Shown here in pieces: positions 2,531 through 28,922 of a DNA stretch of 35,896 nucleotides. Source of the DNA: a virus. Location of the stretch: the IMG/VR virus record IMGVR_UViG_3300032893_000187, positions 1 to 35,896 of that record; one strand, 5' to 3'. A program made the position numbers and the translations under genes. Each line of letters opens with the position of its first letter. Position 1 is the stretch's first letter. Below the pieces are notes generated by a model. The model did not search any database, was not told the origin of the DNA, and saw nothing but the letters and a program-made list of their open reading frames with translations.

Positions 2531-4525
2531 GTGATCGACGCCGCCCTCCTGCGCCAGCTTTCGGAGGATCGCGCGCTTGCGAGCCAGATGCTTTTCCCGC
2601 ATCGGCATCCGCAATCCTCGCCCGAGTACCACATCGAGATCATCGACCTGTGGCGGGCGTCCGATGAGTTCGTCGTCATCGAAGCCTTCCGCGAGGGGGC
2701 GAAGTCAACGCTGTCCGAGGAATTCCTGACCCTGGAAGGCTGCTTCGGCAACTTCCGCTACTGCCTGCTCGTCGGCGAAACCTACAGCAAGGCGTGCCAG
2801 CGGCTTGCGGCGATCGACTACGAGGCGCGCACCAACATCCGGCTGCATCAGACTTTCGGCGGTCCGGTGCTGGCGCGCAAGTCGATCGAGAACAAGGTGT
2901 GGTTCAAAACCGGGGCGATGATCGAGGCGGTCGGTTGGGAGCAGGAGTTGCAATCGTTCAAGCACAACGACGCGCGGCCGGATCGCGCCTACTTGGACGA
3001 CCCGGAGAATCAGGAGCGCGTGCGCGACAAGGATGCGGTCGACGCGAGCATGCGCAAGCTGTACCTTGAATTGATCCCCGCGCTGGATAAGACGAACCGC
3101 AAGGTGCGCCTGACGCAGACGCGGCGCGCCGAAGATTGCATGGTGACGCGGCTCGCATCCTCGCCGGAATGGCTCTATCGCGCCTTCCCGATCTGCGACG
3201 GCGAGCCGGATGACCCGAAAACGAAGGCGATATGGCCCTCGCGCTACCCGATGGGGTGGGTGCGCGCCGAATACCGCCGCTATCGCGACGCCGGCATGTT
3301 GGGCGAATTCAATCAGGCGTACCGCTTGATCGTCATGGACCCGGCGAAAAAGCCGTTCACCGAGGACATGCTGTCAGCCGCCGACCCCTCGTCGTGGTCG
3401 TTCATGCCGAAGGCGGCGATCTTCGACCCGGCGCGGTCGAGCGATCCGCTGAAATCCGACCGCTACGGCAAGATCGTGGCAAGCAAGGTCGGCACGCGAA
3501 TCTACGTCCACGAGTCCGGCGGGTTCCACTGGTCGCCCGATGAATTCGTCGACGACCTGTTCGTGACGCAGGAGAGGCATGACTGCTTCAAGATGGGGAT
3601 CGAGAAGAATTCGCTCGACGATTGGCTGATGTCGCCGATCAGGCACGCGATCTTGAAGCGCGGGGTTCCGCTTCCGATCGTGACCATGCAAGCCCCGCAG
3701 GATCGCAGCAAGGAGGATTTCATCCGGGGCCTGGAACCGTTTGCCAAGGCGCGTGATATTGTCCTCGTAGGGGGTCGCGTTGCGCATCCGCAGCTTGTCG
3801 CCGAGTGGTGCAACTTCCCGCAAGGCCCGCGCGACGTGCTTAACGCACTGGCCTACGTTCTTCGACTTTTTGCGGGGCAACCTGTGTACGAGGATTTCAG
3901 TGGATCAAACGTCCAAGAAGCCCCCGACGTGGGGCGCGGCGACACAGTTCATGTCGCCTGGAATGCATCTTCGTCGGAAGTGGTCGCGGTCGCAGTTGTG
4001 GCACAAAACCGCCGCTACGCGGTTGCTGCCGACTACGCTCGCGCCGGCCCGACGCGCGATGCTGTCGACGCGATACGTTTCGAGCTACGAGCGAAGTTTC
4101 CTACCGCCGCCTTCCAGCACTACGTTCCGACAGACGTGTTCGACCAATGGCAACGGATCGCTTTGGTCCCCGCGCTGCGCTCCTTTGGTGTCGTACCAAT
4201 GCGGGCTTCGCATGTGGCCGTGGCGCGCGGTTCGCTTGCGGCTCCGATGCGGACTGTGGTCAGAAACGCCCGCTGCCTTACCGTCGATCGACGTGCCGCG
4301 AACACTCTCAACGCGCTTGGCGGCGGCTACTCGTACCCGATTGCCAAGGGAGTTCCGCAGCACGAGCCGGAGCCGGGCATCCCCCGGCTGACCGCCGAGG
4401 CGCTCGAAACCCTCGTGCATACCCTGTCGGCGCAAACCGAGGTCGCCGACCTGCCGGCCGGGGCGAACATCGCCTACAGCCCGTCCGGGGCGCGGTATGT
4501 GACGAGCAACCCCTCCCGGCGCTGA
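2531..4525 (+). CDS. terL: Terminase large subunit with extra C-terminal domain
   Basis: This 664-residue protein is the DNA-packaging motor and nuclease. The ATPase shows a Walker-A-like FREGAKST (residues 53-60), Walker B LDDPE (155-159) and a coupling motif QTRR (196-199). The RNase H-like nuclease has D299 (FDPA), E358 (GIEKN) and D435 (GPRDVLNALAY). Most relatives end soon after this point. Here about 200 residues follow. Residues 472-603 repeat the order of nuclease elements, including NTLNALGGGYSY against DVLNALAYV, but with N591 where D435 should be and no clear first acid, so the copy looks catalytically dead. The start is GTG, and no small terminase lies next to it. An RNA-like element and terminator follow. 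Confidence 0.93.
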   Translation: MIDAALLRQLSEDRALASQMLFPHRHPQSSPEYHIEIIDLWRASDEFVVIEAFREGAKSTLSEEFLTLEGCFGNFRYCLLVGETYSKACQRLAAIDYEARTNIRLHQTFGGPVLARKSIENKVWFKTGAMIEAVGWEQELQSFKHNDARPDRAYLDDPENQERVRDKDAVDASMRKLYLELIPALDKTNRKVRLTQTRRAEDCMVTRLASSPEWLYRAFPICDGEPDDPKTKAIWPSRYPMGWVRAEYRRYRDAGMLGEFNQAYRLIVMDPAKKPFTEDMLSAADPSSWSFMPKAAIFDPARSSDPLKSDRYGKIVASKVGTRIYVHESGGFHWSPDEFVDDLFVTQERHDCFKMGIEKNSLDDWLMSPIRHAILKRGVPLPIVTMQAPQDRSKEDFIRGLEPFAKARDIVLVGGRVAHPQLVAEWCNFPQGPRDVLNALAYVLRLFAGQPVYEDFSGSNVQEAPDVGRGDTVHVAWNASSSEVVAVAVVAQNRRYAVAADYARAGPTRDAVDAIRFELRAKFPTAAFQHYVPTDVFDQWQRIALVPALRSFGVVPMRASHVAVARGSLAAPMRTVVRNARCLTVDRRAANTLNALGGGYSYPIAKGVPQHEPEPGIPRLTAEALETLVHTLSAQTEVADLPAGANIAYSPSGARYVTSNPSRR

Positions 4526-4536
4526 CTCGAAACGGG

Positions 4537-4564
4537 TTGCAATCCGCCCCCGGCGTGCTATGCT
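4537..4564 (+). promoter_or_regulatory. Sigma70-like promoter downstream of terL
   Basis: TTGCAA (4537-4542) and TATGCT (4559-4564) are separated by 16 bases, the same geometry and the same GCTATGCTTGG extension as the promoter at 181-208. Transcription would begin near 4571, immediately before a string of hairpins that ends in an intrinsic terminator at 4677-4699. It may drive a short structured RNA, the head-gene operon by read-through, or both. Confidence 0.55.
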
Positions 4565-4570
4565 TGGGAT

Positions 4571-4700
4571 ACCCATTCCGCTGAACAGCGCCCGGCGGAA
4601 ACGCCCCGGCTGCGCGGGCAACGCAGTCGGGACTCGGTAGGTCGCAAGTTCGCTGACCCCTTCCTTGCGACCGGGGAAAGGCCCCTTCGGGGGCTTTTTC
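4571..4700 (+). ncRNA. Candidate structured small RNA or attenuator leader
   Basis: Between terL and the head operon there is no reading frame, but five consecutive hairpins can be drawn: 4579-4590 (CGCT/AGCG), 4594-4605 (GGCG-GAAA-CGCC, a GNRA tetraloop), 4606-4630 (9 bp with one G-U pair), 4640-4672 (GGTCGCAAG/CTTGCGACC, 9 bp perfect with a 15-base loop) and the terminator stem at 4677-4697. A promoter lies just upstream. Together these define a transcript of about 130 nt. It could be a free small RNA, or a leader that attenuates transcription of the structural genes until an antitermination event. I do not recognise a known RNA family. Confidence 0.5.
4677..4699 (+). terminator. Intrinsic terminator before head-gene operon
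   Basis: AAAGGCCCC and GGGGGCTTT pair around a TTC loop, followed by a T-run (4695-4699). The stem and T-tract are those of a strong rho-independent terminator. It lies between the promoter at 4537 and the first head-region gene at 4777, so downstream genes need read-through or another promoter. Confidence 0.75.
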
Positions 4701-4776
4701 CTTTCCGCTTGACACCTTGCGGGGTCCGTCGCATGATTCCCGGCGAATTCCCCTTCTCCTTGCAAGGAGTCGCATC

Positions 4777-4956
4777 ATGGCCGTTTCGCGTGTCCTCGGT
4801 CGCAAGGCCCCGTCGCAGGACGGAACAAAGTTCTTCGAGTGCCAGCAACAGGGCGGTCCGATGGGCAAGCCGTCGAGCGTGCCCGACAAGCCCCGCAGCG
4901 GCCCCATGCGCGAGAAGATCATGGGCAACCCGAAGCTGAACAAGTCGCAAACGTAG
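4777..4956 (+). CDS. Small hypothetical protein (59 aa)
   Basis: ATG 4777 is preceded by AAGGAG with an eight-base spacing, a strong ribosome-binding site. The product is Lys-, Pro- and Gly-rich (GKPSSVPDKPRSGPMREK) with no predicted membrane segment, probably flexible. I recognise no family. It is the first gene after the terminator and the first of three genes leading to the portal, a position often taken by small head-assembly or DNA-binding proteins, but no function can be claimed. Confidence 0.7.
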   Translation: MAVSRVLGRKAPSQDGTKFFECQQQGGPMGKPSSVPDKPRSGPMREKIMGNPKLNKSQT

Positions 4957-4962
4957 GCGATC

Positions 4963-5193
4963 ATGGGGCTTCGTAACCACAGCGGGCGCAGTTCGCCCAA
5001 GCTGTCGCATCCGCCGAAAGTGCAGAAGGCGAGCGGGCCGGCGGCGAAAAAGATTTTCAGCGCCGATCCCAAGCAAGCCGAGAACGACAACATCCCGCGC
5101 AAGATGCGCCCCGCCGCGCACGATGCGAAGCAAACCGCCATCGCAAAGCGCGCCCGCAACACGGTCAAGAAGCTGTCGAATCAGGTAATCTGA
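4963..5193 (+). CDS. Small basic hypothetical protein (76 aa)
   Basis: The protein is strongly basic (many Lys and Arg, e.g. KRARNTVKKLSNQ at the end) and lacks hydrophobic runs. It sits six bases after the preceding stop and one base before the portal start, so it is clearly part of the head operon. Such small basic proteins may bind nucleic acid or the portal, but the sequence shows no defined motif. No family is recognised. Confidence 0.65.
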   Translation: MGLRNHSGRSSPKLSHPPKVQKASGPAAKKIFSADPKQAENDNIPRKMRPAAHDAKQTAIAKRARNTVKKLSNQVI

Positions 5194-5194
5194 T

Positions 5195-7366
5195 GTGGCG
5201 AAGAAAAAGCGTGAGCTTCCAATCGCCGCCGCTACATCGGTAGCCGATCCCGATCGCAATTGGGCAGACGACCCCGATAGCAAGGCGTACAAGGACGCCG
5301 CCGAACTATACGATGTCGTCGAAAAGGCGTTCCAGAACAAAGAAGAACAGGCCGACAAGATCGAGGAATACTGGTCGATCTATAACGCCGAGCCTGACGA
5401 CAACCAAATGTACGCGGGCAACACGCAGGGCTACATTCCTGCCGTCCGCGACGCGATAAACGCGCGCACCAAGCGCTGCCTGCGCCAGCTTTTCCCGAGT
5501 AACGGCAAGCATGTCGACGGCCTGGGGGCCGATGGCAAGATTCCCTATCCGCAGCTTGCGCTCATCGAGCATTACATCCGCAAGACGAACCTGAAAAACA
5601 TCGTCCGCACCGACTTGATCGCGGGCGACGTGACCGGGCAGTGGAATCTGATGCTCGATTGGACGACGAGCGCGCGTTCAGTCACCAATCTCGTGAAGAA
5701 AAACCCGGTCGTCGAGATGATCGACGGCGAGGACGCGACCGAATTGGGATTGAGCGACCCGACCGACGAGTACGACGACACCGAGGATCAGGAAATCGTC
5801 GAAGAAGGCCCCGAAGTCGTCGATTTCGCGACCGAGGACATCGCCGTGATCCCGCCGACATGCACCGATCTGCAAAAGGCGCGTGCGGTCGCGATCCGGT
5901 TGCGCATGTCGCGCGATAAGGTCGAGGAAATGGTCGAGCAGGGCGTGTTCATCCTGCCCGAGAACACCGAATTGAAGCAGTTTTGCGAGCCGGACAAGGG
6001 CCGCGACAAGCGACCCCCGCCGAAACGGCAGGTATCCGGCGTCGGCATCAAGGAACAGGGCACGAACAAGTACGCGCTCATCTATCTCGTCTACACGAAG
6101 CTCGATCTTGGCGGCGACTTCAAGCAAGAGGCGATGGTCTACTACGGCACGCCTCGCGTTCCGTGCGGGATCATCAGGAATCCGCTATGGAGCGGCAAGC
6201 GCCCCATCCTTTCCAAGCCCGTCGATCGCGCGCAGGGCAGTTTCTTCGGCCGCAGCAAGATCGAGCCGGTGAAGTTCCTGCAATGGAACCTGACCGACTT
6301 CTGGAACATGGGGCAGGACTCCGCGCTGTACTCGCTCAACCCGATTTGGGCGGTCGATCCGGTCAGCACGCCGCAGTGGCAGACGCTTGTCATGGGGCTT
6401 GCGGCCGTGTGGCCGGTCGATCCCGCGAAAGTGAAGCCCATCACTCAACCGCAGCTTTGGAAGGACGCGGTTTCCATCTGCAACGAAATGAAGCGGCAGA
6501 TTTGGGAGTCGATGGACGTGAACGAAATGATGATGGGCAAGATGCCGCAGGGGCGGAAGAACAATCAGCTCATGGGGGCCATGTCGCAGGAGCAATCGAC
6601 CAACATCGTCGATCACGCCATGCGGTACGAGGAAGAAATGCTCAACCCCCTGGTCGAGATGCTTTTCGAGTTCGACCAGCAGTTTCGCACCGATGAAATC
6701 GTCATCGAGCAGCGCGGCCCGTTGGGCACGCGCGCCGCATTCTCGCCGATTCCGCCGCAGCAGTGGGGCACGCGCTACACGTTCTCGTGGCAGGGCACGG
6801 AATTCCAGCAGTCGATGCAGCGCCAGCAACAGGCGATCGCCTGGATGAACGTGCTAAAGGGCATCCCGCCGCAGCAGATGAACGGCCGGCGCTTGGATGT
6901 GACGCCGATTCTGGAAGCGGGGACCGAAATGATGTTCGGTCCCGAGCTTGCCCCGCGCATTCTGGTCGACGAGCGCGAGATGTACACCGTCCCGGCCGAT
7001 GTCGAGGACGAAATGATGTGGAACGGATGGGATGTGGAAGTTCACCCGTCCGACAACGACATCGAGCATTTGCGCACGCACATGCGCGCGGCGACGCAAT
7101 CGAGCGACCCGCACGGCTTGTTCAAGAAGCACATGCAAGAGCATGCGCAGGCGATCATCAAGAAGCGGCAGGCCAATCAGCAACCGCAGCTACCGCCGCC
7201 TGGGCAACCGGGCGTTCCCGGCGCTCCGGGTGGGGCAGGGCCGGGGCAGGCCGGCGCTCCGGGTGGGCCGCGACCGGGGGCGATGCCGGGAATGCCGCGC
7301 GGCGGCCAGAATCCGCCGGGGGCGATCCACCCCGACGCGATGGCCGGCATGCCGGGTAGGGGCTAG
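5195..7366 (+). CDS. P22-type portal protein (723 aa)
   Basis: The portal forms the dodecameric ring at the capsid vertex through which DNA enters and leaves. The size, the position after terL and the pattern of an acidic N-terminus (ADDPDSKAYKDAAELYDVV), a long alpha/beta middle (GQWNLMLDW, AVDPVSTPQW) and a helical segment with MGKMPQGRKNNQLMGAMSQEQ fit the P22-like portal group. The C-terminal 60 or so residues (from about 660) are a Gly-Pro-rich, collagen-like tail (GQPGVPGAPGG) that is probably disordered. The start is GTG at 5195, one base after the previous stop. Confidence 0.88.
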   Translation: MAKKKRELPIAAATSVADPDRNWADDPDSKAYKDAAELYDVVEKAFQNKEEQADKIEEYWSIYNAEPDDNQMYAGNTQGYIPAVRDAINARTKRCLRQLFPSNGKHVDGLGADGKIPYPQLALIEHYIRKTNLKNIVRTDLIAGDVTGQWNLMLDWTTSARSVTNLVKKNPVVEMIDGEDATELGLSDPTDEYDDTEDQEIVEEGPEVVDFATEDIAVIPPTCTDLQKARAVAIRLRMSRDKVEEMVEQGVFILPENTELKQFCEPDKGRDKRPPPKRQVSGVGIKEQGTNKYALIYLVYTKLDLGGDFKQEAMVYYGTPRVPCGIIRNPLWSGKRPILSKPVDRAQGSFFGRSKIEPVKFLQWNLTDFWNMGQDSALYSLNPIWAVDPVSTPQWQTLVMGLAAVWPVDPAKVKPITQPQLWKDAVSICNEMKRQIWESMDVNEMMMGKMPQGRKNNQLMGAMSQEQSTNIVDHAMRYEEEMLNPLVEMLFEFDQQFRTDEIVIEQRGPLGTRAAFSPIPPQQWGTRYTFSWQGTEFQQSMQRQQQAIAWMNVLKGIPPQQMNGRRLDVTPILEAGTEMMFGPELAPRILVDEREMYTVPADVEDEMMWNGWDVEVHPSDNDIEHLRTHMRAATQSSDPHGLFKKHMQEHAQAIIKKRQANQQPQLPPPGQPGVPGAPGGAGPGQAGAPGGPRPGAMPGMPRGGQNPPGAIHPDAMAGMPGRG

Positions 7367-12357: not shown

Positions 12358-12372
12358 AACGGAGTGAAGCGC

Positions 12373-13800
12373 ATGAAACCGTCTATCATCCTCGCGAGCT
12401 TCCTGGGATTCCTCTCGGCGTTTCTGTTCCCGAGGGTGGTAAACACGTCGACCAACCCCGGCTTTCAGTCGGACGTTGAGGCGTACATCCAAGAGGAAGT
12501 CGAACCTTTGGCGCGGCGCCAGCTCGTCGCGTACCAGTTCGGGAAGCCGCTTCATCTGGATACCAATCGCGGCGTGACCTACACCGCGACGCGCTTCGAA
12601 CGTCTGCCGCTGCCATACGCGCCGTTGCAGGAAGGCGTAGCCCCGGCCGGCGAATCGGTCACGTTGTCCCAAGTCGCCGCGACCGCGCAGCAGTGGGGCG
12701 ATTCGGTGACGGTGACGGACGTTGCCAACCTGACGATCAAGCATCCGATCTTCCAGCAAGCGATTCAGCTTGTCTCGATCCAGATGCCCGAGACGCTGGA
12801 ACGCAACACGCTCAACACGCTTCTGGCCGCGAATCAGGTGAACTACGCCAACGGCCGCGCCTCGCGCGCCACCCTGGTGTCGACCGATGTCATGTCGCCG
12901 CACGAGTCCAACAAGGTCGTCGGCTCGCTCCTGACCTACGGTGCGCCGCGTTTCAACGGCGACGAGCGCGAGGACATGATGATCGAGGCGGGCGCGTACC
13001 GCGACCCGTCGAAGTCGCCGAGCATGATGCAGCACTACGTTGCGCTGATCCATCCGCTCGTCGCGCAGGACATGCGGGAAAACTCGCAAGTCAACACCGC
13101 CTGGGCGTTCTCGGACGTGAACCGGCTCTACAACAACGAGCTTGGCCCGTTCGGCGGCGTGCGCTTCTGCGAAACCAACATGATGCCGTATTGGGTCGGC
13201 AACGCGCTCGTGACGGGCACGCCAAGCACGACTGGCGGCACGCTGGCAACCTCGGCGACGTACAACATCATCGTCACCGGCTCGCCGATCCTGACGAGCG
13301 TCGAACAGCAAATCTATCAGGTCAGCGGCAACATCAGCGTCACTGGCCCGACCGGCTCGATTTCGGTGACTCTGCCGACGAAGCCGGGCTATGTGTTCAA
13401 CGTCTACATCGGCACCACGTCAAGCCCGGCGAACCTGGGCCTGTGCGCGACGGGACCGACGAGCGGCCCGCTGGCGGGACAGGCAACGCAGCTTGCATCC
13501 GGCTCGACGGCCGTCATCACCGGCATCGGCATCGCGCAGACGCCGCCGGCAGCACCCGCAACCGGCGTTACGGTGTTCCCGACGATCTTCATCGGCAATC
13601 ACAGCTACGGGCAGGTGATCCTCGAAAATCCCGAGTTCTTCTACCTGACCGGGGCAGACAAGAGCGACCGCCTGAATCAGACGCGCGTGGTCGCGTGGAA
13701 AGTGTTTTACGGTTCGATCATCCTGAATCAAGGCTTCTTGGTTCGCGTCGAGTCGTCGAGCGCCTTCACGCCGGGCTACAGCGCGGGCACGCAAGCGTAG
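12373..13800 (+). CDS. Major capsid protein, N4gp56 family (475 aa)
   Basis: Start ATG 12373 follows GGAG by eight bases. After a hydrophobic opening with the shared motif LSAFLFPRVV (residues 14-23), the protein has the N4gp56-family pattern: a long N-arm, GVTYTATRFERLPLP, VTVTDVANLTIKHPIFQ, MPYWVGNALV, and the C-terminal AWKVFYGSIILNQGFLVR (441-458). Residues about 281-397 form a Thr/Gly/Ser-rich insertion (VSGNISVTGPTGSISVTLP) that reads as an Ig-like surface domain. A strong terminator follows, as expected for the most heavily expressed gene. Confidence 0.88.
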   Translation: MKPSIILASFLGFLSAFLFPRVVNTSTNPGFQSDVEAYIQEEVEPLARRQLVAYQFGKPLHLDTNRGVTYTATRFERLPLPYAPLQEGVAPAGESVTLSQVAATAQQWGDSVTVTDVANLTIKHPIFQQAIQLVSIQMPETLERNTLNTLLAANQVNYANGRASRATLVSTDVMSPHESNKVVGSLLTYGAPRFNGDEREDMMIEAGAYRDPSKSPSMMQHYVALIHPLVAQDMRENSQVNTAWAFSDVNRLYNNELGPFGGVRFCETNMMPYWVGNALVTGTPSTTGGTLATSATYNIIVTGSPILTSVEQQIYQVSGNISVTGPTGSISVTLPTKPGYVFNVYIGTTSSPANLGLCATGPTSGPLAGQATQLASGSTAVITGIGIAQTPPAAPATGVTVFPTIFIGNHSYGQVILENPEFFYLTGADKSDRLNQTRVVAWKVFYGSIILNQGFLVRVESSSAFTPGYSAGTQA

Positions 13801-13823
13801 ACCTAGCAGTTTCACGTTCGGCG

Positions 13824-13852
13824 GGGGCGGGCCTACTAGCCCGCCCCTTTTT
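13824..13852 (+). terminator. Strong intrinsic terminator after capsid gene
   Basis: GGGGCGGGC and GCCCGCCCC form a perfect 9 bp stem around CTACTA, directly followed by five T residues. It lies 24 bases after the capsid stop and 14 bases before the next start codon, so transcription is cut between capsid and tail-joining genes. The ribosome-binding site of the next gene (GGAGG) follows immediately. Confidence 0.88.
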
Positions 13853-14822: not shown

Positions 14823-15583
14823 ATCTTCAAGCAATCTGTTTGCTGGCAGCGCAAATCGCCAAGGGCGGGCCGGGGATGGTTAGCATCGCCGGCCAGATGC
14901 TTACGATCGTGCTGGAAGATTTGAAGTTGGTCCGCAACCTGAAAATGAACCGGATCACGACGACGTTGAGCGTGACGCCGACGCAAGCCTATGGTCCGTT
15001 CCCGCTGGAAGCGGACTATCTGCGGACGTACGACATGTACTACCCGATCCCCAACAGCGCCGTGGCCGGCGGCACGACACCGGGCGGGATCACGCAATTC
15101 CTGACGCTCATTTCGATGGAAGCGTGGGACGCTGAATTCAAAGACCCGTCGACCGCAAATTACCCGTACGAGTTCGCCACTGACACGTCGACACAGGCGC
15201 AAGTGTGGACCGGCGGCACGCCCGGCAACGGCACGATGACGAGCGCTGGCTATTTCAACATCTACCCGATGACTTCCGGCACGATCCAGTTGACGCATCG
15301 GTACATGAAGAATCAGCCCGACTATGCGACCCCGGAATCCTCTACGCTGCAACCGTGGTTCCCGCATACGATGTATCTCGTCACGGCAACGGCGGCTCAC
15401 CTGATGGGCGTTACCGGCGACGACCGCAAAGATAAATTCCACGCCGAGGCGGAGCATTTTCTTGCTCCGTATTTGATAATGGAATCCGACGAGGTTAATA
15501 CGACACATTCGGTGCGCCTAGACCCTAGACGATTTAGGTTCTCGAAAGCGCTGAAACCTGTGAAAGCTTTCCCCTTCTCATAG
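14819..15583 (+). CDS. P22 gp4-like head-tail adaptor (254 aa)
   Basis: The N-terminal helical half (AICLLAAQIAKGGPG, QMLTIVLEDLKLVRNL), followed by PLEADYLRTYDMYYP and a beta part with FNIYPMTSGTIQLTHRY and QPDYATPES, matches the gp4-type adaptor that closes the portal in P22-like phages. The C-terminal end (PWFPHTMYLVTATAAHLMG, then a charged helix) is also consistent. It lies before the tail-hub gene, as in P22-like phages. The stop converges with the minus-strand HNH gene, with a 6 bp overlap. Confidence 0.78.
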   Translation: MNLQAICLLAAQIAKGGPGMVSIAGQMLTIVLEDLKLVRNLKMNRITTTLSVTPTQAYGPFPLEADYLRTYDMYYPIPNSAVAGGTTPGGITQFLTLISMEAWDAEFKDPSTANYPYEFATDTSTQAQVWTGGTPGNGTMTSAGYFNIYPMTSGTIQLTHRYMKNQPDYATPESSTLQPWFPHTMYLVTATAAHLMGVTGDDRKDKFHAEAEHFLAPYLIMESDEVNTTHSVRLDPRRFRFSKALKPVKAFPFS

Positions 15584-16045
15584 CCATGTTTTTCTGTGTT
15601 TGATGCACCAAACATTTTGACGAGTAATGTTGAACTGCCTAGCTACAGTTTCGCCGTCTATGCCAGATTCAAGCATGGCGCGGATTGTATCTACATCATT
15701 GGCTGACAGCTTGTGTGTGGGGCTATTTTCGCCGCTGATCCTCTTTCGTATTGTCTTGTCACGCATGTTGTCGGCGTGCGTGCCCAACCGCAAATGCGAC
15801 GGATTGACACAGGAAGGAACATCGCAGGAGTGTAGTACCTGCGCGCCTTTCGGTATTTCCCCGAAGTGCAATTCCCACGACACGCGATGCGCACGGCACG
15901 GCCTTGCCTTGTATGTAAGGTATTGCATGCCGATGCTGATAACTCCGTACCCATCTTTGTCGACAGGTCCATTCCAAAGCCAGCAGGTCGTGAACGGAAC
16001 GAGTTCGACTCTGTTCCAAAACTTCTCTAGAATTGGCGAAGCCAT
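15578..16045 (-). CDS. HNH homing endonuclease, antisense insertion (155 aa)
   Basis: The HNH fold is clear: CWLWNG (21-26), RAHRVSW (51-57), then LHSCDVPSCVNPSHL (71-85), with C74, C79, N81 and H84 as structural or catalytic residues. A C-terminal helix-turn-helix (SANDVDTIRAML...VARQFNITRQNV, about 114-145) would bind DNA. It is read on the strand opposite to its neighbours, between adaptor and tail-hub genes. On the minus strand, GGAAGGAG sits seven bases before the ATG. The DNA is visibly more AT-rich than the flanks, so recent transfer is likely. It appears intact. Confidence 0.9.
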   Translation of the reverse strand: MASPILEKFWNRVELVPFTTCWLWNGPVDKDGYGVISIGMQYLTYKARPCRAHRVSWELHFGEIPKGAQVLHSCDVPSCVNPSHLRLGTHADNMRDKTIRKRISGENSPTHKLSANDVDTIRAMLESGIDGETVARQFNITRQNVWCIKHRKTWL

Positions 16046-27130: not shown

Positions 27131-28488
27131 TGCCGTTCGTTCCCGACACCGAAGAACCGGCCGCGCCAAAGGGGCATTTCGTTCCCGACGCCGCGCCTAC
27201 CCCGGAACCGGCGAAGCCGAAATCGTCGCTCAAATCGTTTTCGGAGCATCCGGTCGAGAACGTCATTGAAGCCGTGCCGGAAGCCGCAGCGGCGACCGCA
27301 AGCGGGCTTGCCGGGCACTACGGCGGTTTGCTGGCCGGCGCAGGCTCGATCCCTTTGCACGCGGCCGGCATCATCAAAACGGAACCGCAGGACGTGCGGC
27401 GCAACGTCGAAAGCGCGCTGACGTACAAGCCGCGTACGCAGTGGGGACAGAATCTTGCCGAATACAATCCGGCCGCGCTCGTCGGCAAAGGGCTCGATTA
27501 CGCGGGCGAGGGCTTGCAAAACAAGATCAAGCAGGTTCCGGTCCCGCCGGGATTTCGCAGTGCGCGCGACGCCCTTGCGGCCGGCGCTCGGGAAGCAGTA
27601 GGCGCGGCCCCGATGTTCATGGGCGAGGCTGCGCCGCGAGCGGTGCGCGGTACTGGCGAGGCGATGAAGGCCGGCGGCGAGCGCGTCATGCAAAGCGCGC
27701 TGAAACCGGATTTGCCGTCGCGCCGCCTCACGATGCCGGGCACGGATATGTCGAAGGCCGAGGCGGGGGTCAAAACGCTGTTGGAGGAAGGCGTCAACGT
27801 CACGAAAGGCGGCGCTGAAAAGCTGCACGAGCGCGTGACGGACCTGAACGATCGCATCAAAACCGTCATTGAGAATTCGCCCGCACGCATCGACAAGGGT
27901 AGGGCCGCGTCGGCATTGCAGGACGTGGTGAACAAGTTTGAGAAACAGGTCAACTCGACCAAAGACTTGAAGCGGATTGAAAAGGCGTGGGACGACTTTC
28001 TGAATCACCCGTTGCTGTCCGGTCGGCAGACGATGCCGATCCAACTCGCGCAGGAATTGAAGCAAGGAACGTATCGCGTCCTGAAAGACAAAGCCTACGG
28101 CGAATTGAAGGGCGCAGACATCGAGGCGCAGAAAGCGCTTGCACGCGGCTTGAAGGAAGAAATCGCCGCAGCCGCGCCGGAAGTTCGCCCGCTCAATGCC
28201 GAGGAATCGAAGTTGCTCAACGCCCTTAGCCTCGTCGAGCGGCGCGTATTGCAGGAAGCCAACCGCAACCCGATCGGCTTGGGATGGCTTTCGCAGAACG
28301 CAAAGCAGTTCGCCGGATGGATGGCGGATCGCAGCGATCTATTCAAGTCGCTCGTCGCGCGCATGCTCTACCAGACCGGAGAAGCAACGCGCGGCGCGGC
28401 TCCCGTTGCCGGGCCTGGAATGGGCCTGACGATGGCGCACGGCGCGGAAGAACGCAACAGAGTCATTCCGCCGATCCCGCCGCAATGA
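27130..28488 (+). CDS. Ejection-type internal protein (452 aa)
   Basis: ATG 27130 overlaps the preceding TAA. After a Pro-rich start (FVPDTEEPAAPKGHFVPD), the central part is Ala-rich and amphipathic (about 45-175), suited to membrane passage. It is followed by a helical domain with LLEEGVNVTKGGAEKLHERVTDLNDRI, MPIQLAQELKQGTYRVLKDKAYGELKG and EEIAAAAPEVRPLNAEESKLLNAL. This last domain is common in phage internal proteins. It is the third member of the ejection block. The stop is shared with the start of an HNH gene. Confidence 0.72.
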   Translation: MPFVPDTEEPAAPKGHFVPDAAPTPEPAKPKSSLKSFSEHPVENVIEAVPEAAAATASGLAGHYGGLLAGAGSIPLHAAGIIKTEPQDVRRNVESALTYKPRTQWGQNLAEYNPAALVGKGLDYAGEGLQNKIKQVPVPPGFRSARDALAAGAREAVGAAPMFMGEAAPRAVRGTGEAMKAGGERVMQSALKPDLPSRRLTMPGTDMSKAEAGVKTLLEEGVNVTKGGAEKLHERVTDLNDRIKTVIENSPARIDKGRAASALQDVVNKFEKQVNSTKDLKRIEKAWDDFLNHPLLSGRQTMPIQLAQELKQGTYRVLKDKAYGELKGADIEAQKALARGLKEEIAAAAPEVRPLNAEESKLLNALSLVERRVLQEANRNPIGLGWLSQNAKQFAGWMADRSDLFKSLVARMLYQTGEATRGAAPVAGPGMGLTMAHGAEERNRVIPPIPPQ

Positions 28489-28922
28489 AAGGAACCATCA
28501 AAGAAAGGTTCGATGCGAAGTTTATTCGCATTCCATTCTCCGGGTGTTGGCTATGGACGGCATCTGTTGATCGTGGCGGGTATGGAACATTCGTGATTGA
28601 TGGAAGAACAATAGGTGCGCACCGGATTGCGTATCAGATTTATCGTGGCGAAATCCCCAATGGACTAGATGTTTGTCATCATTGCGATGTTAGATGTTGC
28701 GTGAACCCAGATCACTTGTATTGCGCCAGCGCACAAGAAAACATGAAGGATATGGTTTCGCGTGGTCGTTATGCCATACCAAAACATCAAACTGAAAAAA
28801 CGCATTGTCCGCACGGGCATGAGTATTCGGTAGAAAACACTCGCCATTACCGCACGGGTAGATGGTGCAGACAGTGTGACCGCGAGCGTAACCGCGAGCG
28901 GAGGAAAAAATCAAAGTTTTAA
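28485..28922 (+). CDS. HNH homing endonuclease with zinc tail (145 aa)
   Basis: The HNH core shows CWLWTASVDRGGYGTF (21-36), GAHRIAYQIYRGEIP (44-58), then VCHHCDVRCCVNPDHLYC (63-80), with H65/H66, N74 and H77. A C-terminal zinc ribbon follows: CPHGHEY (108-114) and CRQC (128-131), ending in a basic tail. The DNA is AT-richer than its neighbours. It sits exactly at the junction of the ejection gene and the ATP-grasp gene and appears to have taken over the latter's ATG (see findings). It appears intact. Confidence 0.9.
   Translation: MKGTIKERFDAKFIRIPFSGCWLWTASVDRGGYGTFVIDGRTIGAHRIAYQIYRGEIPNGLDVCHHCDVRCCVNPDHLYCASAQENMKDMVSRGRYAIPKHQTEKTHCPHGHEYSVENTRHYRTGRWCRQCDRERNRERRKKSKF

Follow-up and report, generated by a model that had tools for sequence, protein, structure and literature searches.

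A candidate accessory RNA unit between the terminase and head genes of an uncultured phage

The DNA analyzed here, 35,896 bases long, is the IMG/VR record of an uncultured phage, and the whole of it is called the window. Its terminase large subunit gene, terL (2531-4525, plus strand; phrog_38, E 1.8e-35), is followed on the same strand by a 59-residue ORF (4777-4956) that is conserved in relatives, and by the portal protein gene (5195-7366; phrog_1216), for which relatives were also found; the gene of the major head protein lies at 12364-13800. The 59-residue product (MAVSR...KAPSQ...) of this first head-side ORF has no PHROG match, and the ORF follows terL immediately in every relative scored. 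Between the end of terL at 4525 and the start of this ORF at 4777 is a gap of 251 bp (4526-4776) in which no credible gene was found among the ORFs of the window, in agreement with the initial annotation. A 26-codon frame from an ATG at 4560 was rejected as a gene; it overlaps a -10 box and is without a ribosome site. The long minus-strand frames 4085-4765, 4308-5168 and 4558-5358 were judged to be GC-driven because they oppose conserved plus-strand genes. A perfect 14-bp palindrome, CTCCTTGCAAGGAG, at 4756-4769 overlaps the first head-side ORF's ribosome-binding region, and a similar one, CTTTGCAAGGAG, precedes the corresponding ORF of one relative (L007). Elsewhere in the window, the strongest terminator (13823-13852; a 10-bp stem and five T) is found 22 bases past the major head protein gene, and two ORFs judged by eye from their translations to be HNH homing endonuclease-like (15578-16045, minus strand, FTTCWLWNGPVDKDGYG...; 28484-28922, plus strand, FSGCWLWTASVDRGGYG...) stand amid the structural genes.

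The gap contains two predicted plus-strand promoters. The upstream one, P1 (4537-4564), pairs TTGCAA (4537-4542) with TATGCT (4559-4564) across 16 bp and has an extended -10 element (TGC before TATGCT); as a sequence match it bears out the sigma70-like promoter named by the initial annotation. Scored with an approximate sigma70 matrix, P1 ranks third on the plus strand of the window, or second when the extended -10 is credited, and fourth to sixth when both strands are taken together. A site as good as P1 arises in 1.8% of dinucleotide-shuffled spacers without the extended -10 credit and in 0.4% with it. The second promoter, P2 (4709-4737; TTGACA-17-CATGAT), 172 bases downstream of P1, had been overlooked; it is the best plus-strand match of the whole window, and once the extended -10 is credited no other plus-strand site scores above P1 and P2.

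Between the two promoters a predicted non-coding RNA of ~128 nt (4571-4699, plus strand) extends from P1 to an intrinsic terminator, being recognized by its promoter and terminator anatomy. Its folding ensemble contains an 8-bp stem (4576-4600, i.e. 4576-4583 paired with 4593-4600; probabilities of 0.97-0.99 for the seven inner pairs and 0.73 for the outermost), a 10-bp stem with a 7-nt loop (4605-4631; 0.97-1.0) and a perfect 9-bp stem enclosing a pyrimidine-rich loop of 15 nt at 4649-4663 (4640-4672; 0.98-1.0). The five hairpins originally described are accordingly retained in part: those at 4606-4630 and 4640-4672 (9 bp, perfect) are sound, while the 4-bp hairpins at 4579-4590 and 4594-4605 (the latter with a GAAA loop) are replaced by the helix 4576-4583/4593-4600. 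The terminator, here placed at 4676-4699 (4677-4699 in the initial annotation), is of canonical form, GAAAGGCCCC-UUCG-GGGGGCUUUUU, with a UUCG loop and a five-U tail; its core pairs have a probability of at least 0.97 in the predicted P1 transcript, in whose ensemble no stable competing anti-terminator was found. The 3' tail of the RNA, UUUUUCCUUU, has five U followed by CC. In the first head-side ORF, 4797-4807 is complementary to 4663-4673 over 11 nt; this match is near chance (~0.03 expected locally, an estimate) and lies within the third stem, and it was set aside as a weak lead only.

The folding energy of the whole RNA is low (z = -2.55, with 3 of 276 other plus-strand stretches of the window as extreme), and this depends on the terminator. 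Without it, z is -1.8 for 4571-4672 (17 of 276 as extreme), and for 4565-4676 it is -1.0 (55 of 276). With the terminator left aside, the RNA has only a slight folding advantage over shuffled sequence, and a GC content of 64% accounts for most of the packed stems. The base composition of the unit (GC 0.657 vs 0.637 for terL) gives no sign of foreign origin, and ARAGORN found no tRNA remnant in the spacer.

Relatives were gathered by IMG/VR scans with the portal, the head protein, the small ORF and terL, and by scanning bacterial genomes with the portal, which yielded three Paraburkholderia and an uncultured beta-proteobacterium; the hosts are probably of the Burkholderiales and not enterobacteria. 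The resulting set comprises 75 distinct terL-to-small-ORF junctions, the window's own included, with gaps of at most 15 bp in 51 and of at least 50 bp in 24 (again counting the window). None of the 74 other junctions scored has the RNA at this position, nor do additional junctions found with terL; conservation of the stems in relatives, whose lack the initial annotation had itself named as refuting, was thus looked for with a negative outcome. The larger gaps instead hold a variety of genes: a tRNA-Met in one relative (L017:2046-2121), ORFs directly after terL recognized by eye as HNH endonuclease-like in five (L010, L045, L092, L139 and L172), a 209-aa ORF in L002 and short ORFs in L157 and L176. 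On this sequence evidence the junction is therefore considered an insertion hot spot.

Comparison of the junctions also bears on the origin of the two promoters. TTGACA or TTGACT occurs at the terL end of 15 relatives with longer gaps. In 11 of them (L003, L006, L007, L009, L012, L016, L017, L029, L033, L048 and L129) this -35 box overlaps the terL stop codon TGA, its first base lying 4 before the first base past the stop; in the remaining four (L005, L019, L020 and L133) the box begins 10 to 15 bases past the stop. Three further terL ends (L254, L258 and L259) resemble the overlapping arrangement. The terL stop of the window carries the hexamer CTGACT, one change from TTGACT, and no -10 box follows it at the appropriate spacing. 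P2 is by its sequence the counterpart of the ordinary head-gene promoter of the relatives, since its -10 box is 39 bases from the first head-side ORF, as in L033 and L029, and its -10 hexamer is identical to the CATGAT of L033. As the counterpart of the terL-end promoter of the 15 relatives, P2 would therefore allow the predicted RNA to start and stop separately from the head operon. P1 lies at +11 from the terL stop, close to the site of the head promoters of the four relatives (+10 to +15). P1 may be a left-over head promoter; it may have arrived with an insert, or the RNA, terminator and P2 may have been inserted behind an old promoter.

Searches for homologues of the RNA gave consistently negative results among the records covered, from which near-identical ones may have been missing. 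With the spacer and the RNA as queries, blastn against phage and plasmid records returned only short chance or terminator-like matches, and exact-stem patterns in IMG/VR gave 5 and 30 matches with flanks unlike the RNA. When 399 genomes belonging to the order and 369 from the class were screened, the only matches were of ~27-50 nt, to terminators, promoter-like stretches or GC-rich stretches. No homologue was recovered either by the covariance-model search suggested at the outset, whose model is weak because it was built on one sequence; the search covered 69 loci (809 kb), 25 complete records or genomes and another seven loci. A 21-nt match in the contig of L007 is isolated and hence was discounted. 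The lack of a homologue thus leaves the stems without support from covariation or selection. In the window nothing reaches an Rfam gathering score, the best sub-threshold match being isrB (RF01386) at 21.8 bits (E 0.068; gathering cut-off 35).

The preferred explanation, held at about even odds (a probability of roughly 0.5), is that 4537-4699 constitutes an autonomous, moron-like non-coding transcription unit that makes a small trans-acting regulatory RNA. In this view host sigma70 RNA polymerase would make the ~128-nt RNA from a start at P1 (~4571) to the terminator (~4699), the head genes would be transcribed separately from P2, and the RNA would act in trans by pairing through exposed stretches, e.g. 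the pyrimidine-rich loop. Arguing for this are the anatomy of the unit with its canonical terminator, the ranks of P1 and P2 and the separateness of the head promoter, the near-certain pairing of the longest stems, the absence of the RNA from the 74 relatives and its place in a hot-spot slot. What the sequence shows is the anatomy, the separate head promoter, the absence from relatives and the insertion hot spot; use of P1, accumulation of the RNA and any regulatory effect are inferences. Arguing against it are the unexceptional fold without the terminator (z of -1.8 to -1.0), the lack of a homologue, the nearness of P1 to the relatives' head promoter site, and a terminator U tract only five long. 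The free small RNA of ~130 nt proposed in the initial annotation is thus supported as a discrete unit by its anatomy, and the suggested roles tied to terminase or the head operon are not supported.

The main rival is that the region is a boundary only, the terminator ending the terL transcript and the head operon restarting at P2, with P1 and the stems incidental and any short RNA a functionless by-product. A terminator directly followed by a promoter is a usual form of operon boundary, the stems are not conserved, and the fold stands out only through the terminator. However, relatives do without a terminator at this place, the gap being 15 bp or less in 51 of the 75 junctions, and a boundary has no need of P1, which few other sites of the window outrank and which is rare in shuffled spacers. 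A boundary and nothing more is a possible but less likely reading. Distinctly unlikely is a decaying or chance insert, in which the spacer would be a remnant in the hot spot and its promoter-like and stem sequences now meaningless. The slot takes varied genes, the fold without the terminator is unexceptional and no homologue exists among the records searched, all of which would fit such a remnant, but the rank of P1 and its shuffle frequency of 0.4-1.8%, together with an intact canonical terminator and the failure of ARAGORN to find a tRNA remnant, speak against it.

The initial annotation had also raised an attenuator of the structural operon, in which P1 would drive the head genes and the stems and terminator would form a leader controlling read-through. 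The promoter, stems and terminator do all lie upstream of the operon, and P1 is near the usual head promoter place of four relatives; but P2, beyond the terminator, would bypass it, the terminator pairs are near certain in the predicted P1 transcript, and the leader contains no peptide ORF preceded by a ribosome site. Attenuation is considered quite improbable because of the separate P2 and the lack of a stable anti-terminator. An RNA that this phage group requires for packaging, or otherwise for head assembly, has in its favor the position between terL and the portal region and nothing else. It is very improbable: the RNA is missing at this place from 74 of 74 relatives whose terL is homologous, which contradicts a conserved packaging RNA, and the relatives searched gave no structural match elsewhere. 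The packaging RNA (pRNA) of phage phi29 is a phage non-coding RNA of a size similar to that of the predicted RNA unit, which differs from it in that the window lacks an Rfam match at gathering score and the relatives are without this RNA here. Rather than a conserved packaging RNA, the unit is probably an accessory RNA gene that was acquired, a plausible but fairly ordinary finding.

Comparison with known elements helps to place the proposed accessory RNA. Morons are described as genes of fairly recent acquisition that frequently travel with promoters and terminators of their own (PMC2147016). The RNA unit resembles them in having a promoter and terminator of its own, as judged by sequence, in its absence from relatives and in its accessory-gene slot; unlike them it codes for no protein, hence "moron-like" rather than a classical moron, and it does not have the foreign-like base composition that is frequent, but not obligatory, among morons. 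Some small RNAs encoded by phages, AgvB among them, act on host RNAs (PMC4104026; reviewed in PMC12197685). The unit shares with prophage small RNAs of the AgvB/AsxR type (PMC4104026; PMC12197685) a short, structured, terminator-ended form predicted in a phage genome, but it has no demonstrated sequence relationship to them and its host is probably not an enterobacterium. A feature of Hfq-dependent small RNAs is a long U-rich 3' end after the terminator; the tail of this RNA has five U and then CC, which speaks neither for nor against such dependence. The likeness to isrB consists of a hairpin followed by a UUCG-loop terminator and, at a score below the cut-off, rests on generic stems. The unit might also represent a new family of regulatory or sponge RNAs borne by phages, which would sit in the terL-head hot spot with a promoter and terminator of its own and act on host RNAs or on competing phages; this reading is rather unlikely.

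An accessory RNA at this locus is likely but unproven. If made, it would be an accessory non-coding gene in an uncultured phage clade, lying where tRNA, endonuclease-like and other small genes are found in relatives. The comparison exposes a conserved feature of this group, in that the terL stop codon of 11 relatives is overlapped by the -35 box of the head promoter, and the slot from the terL stop to the head promoter is a useful place in which to seek further accessory RNAs and genes.
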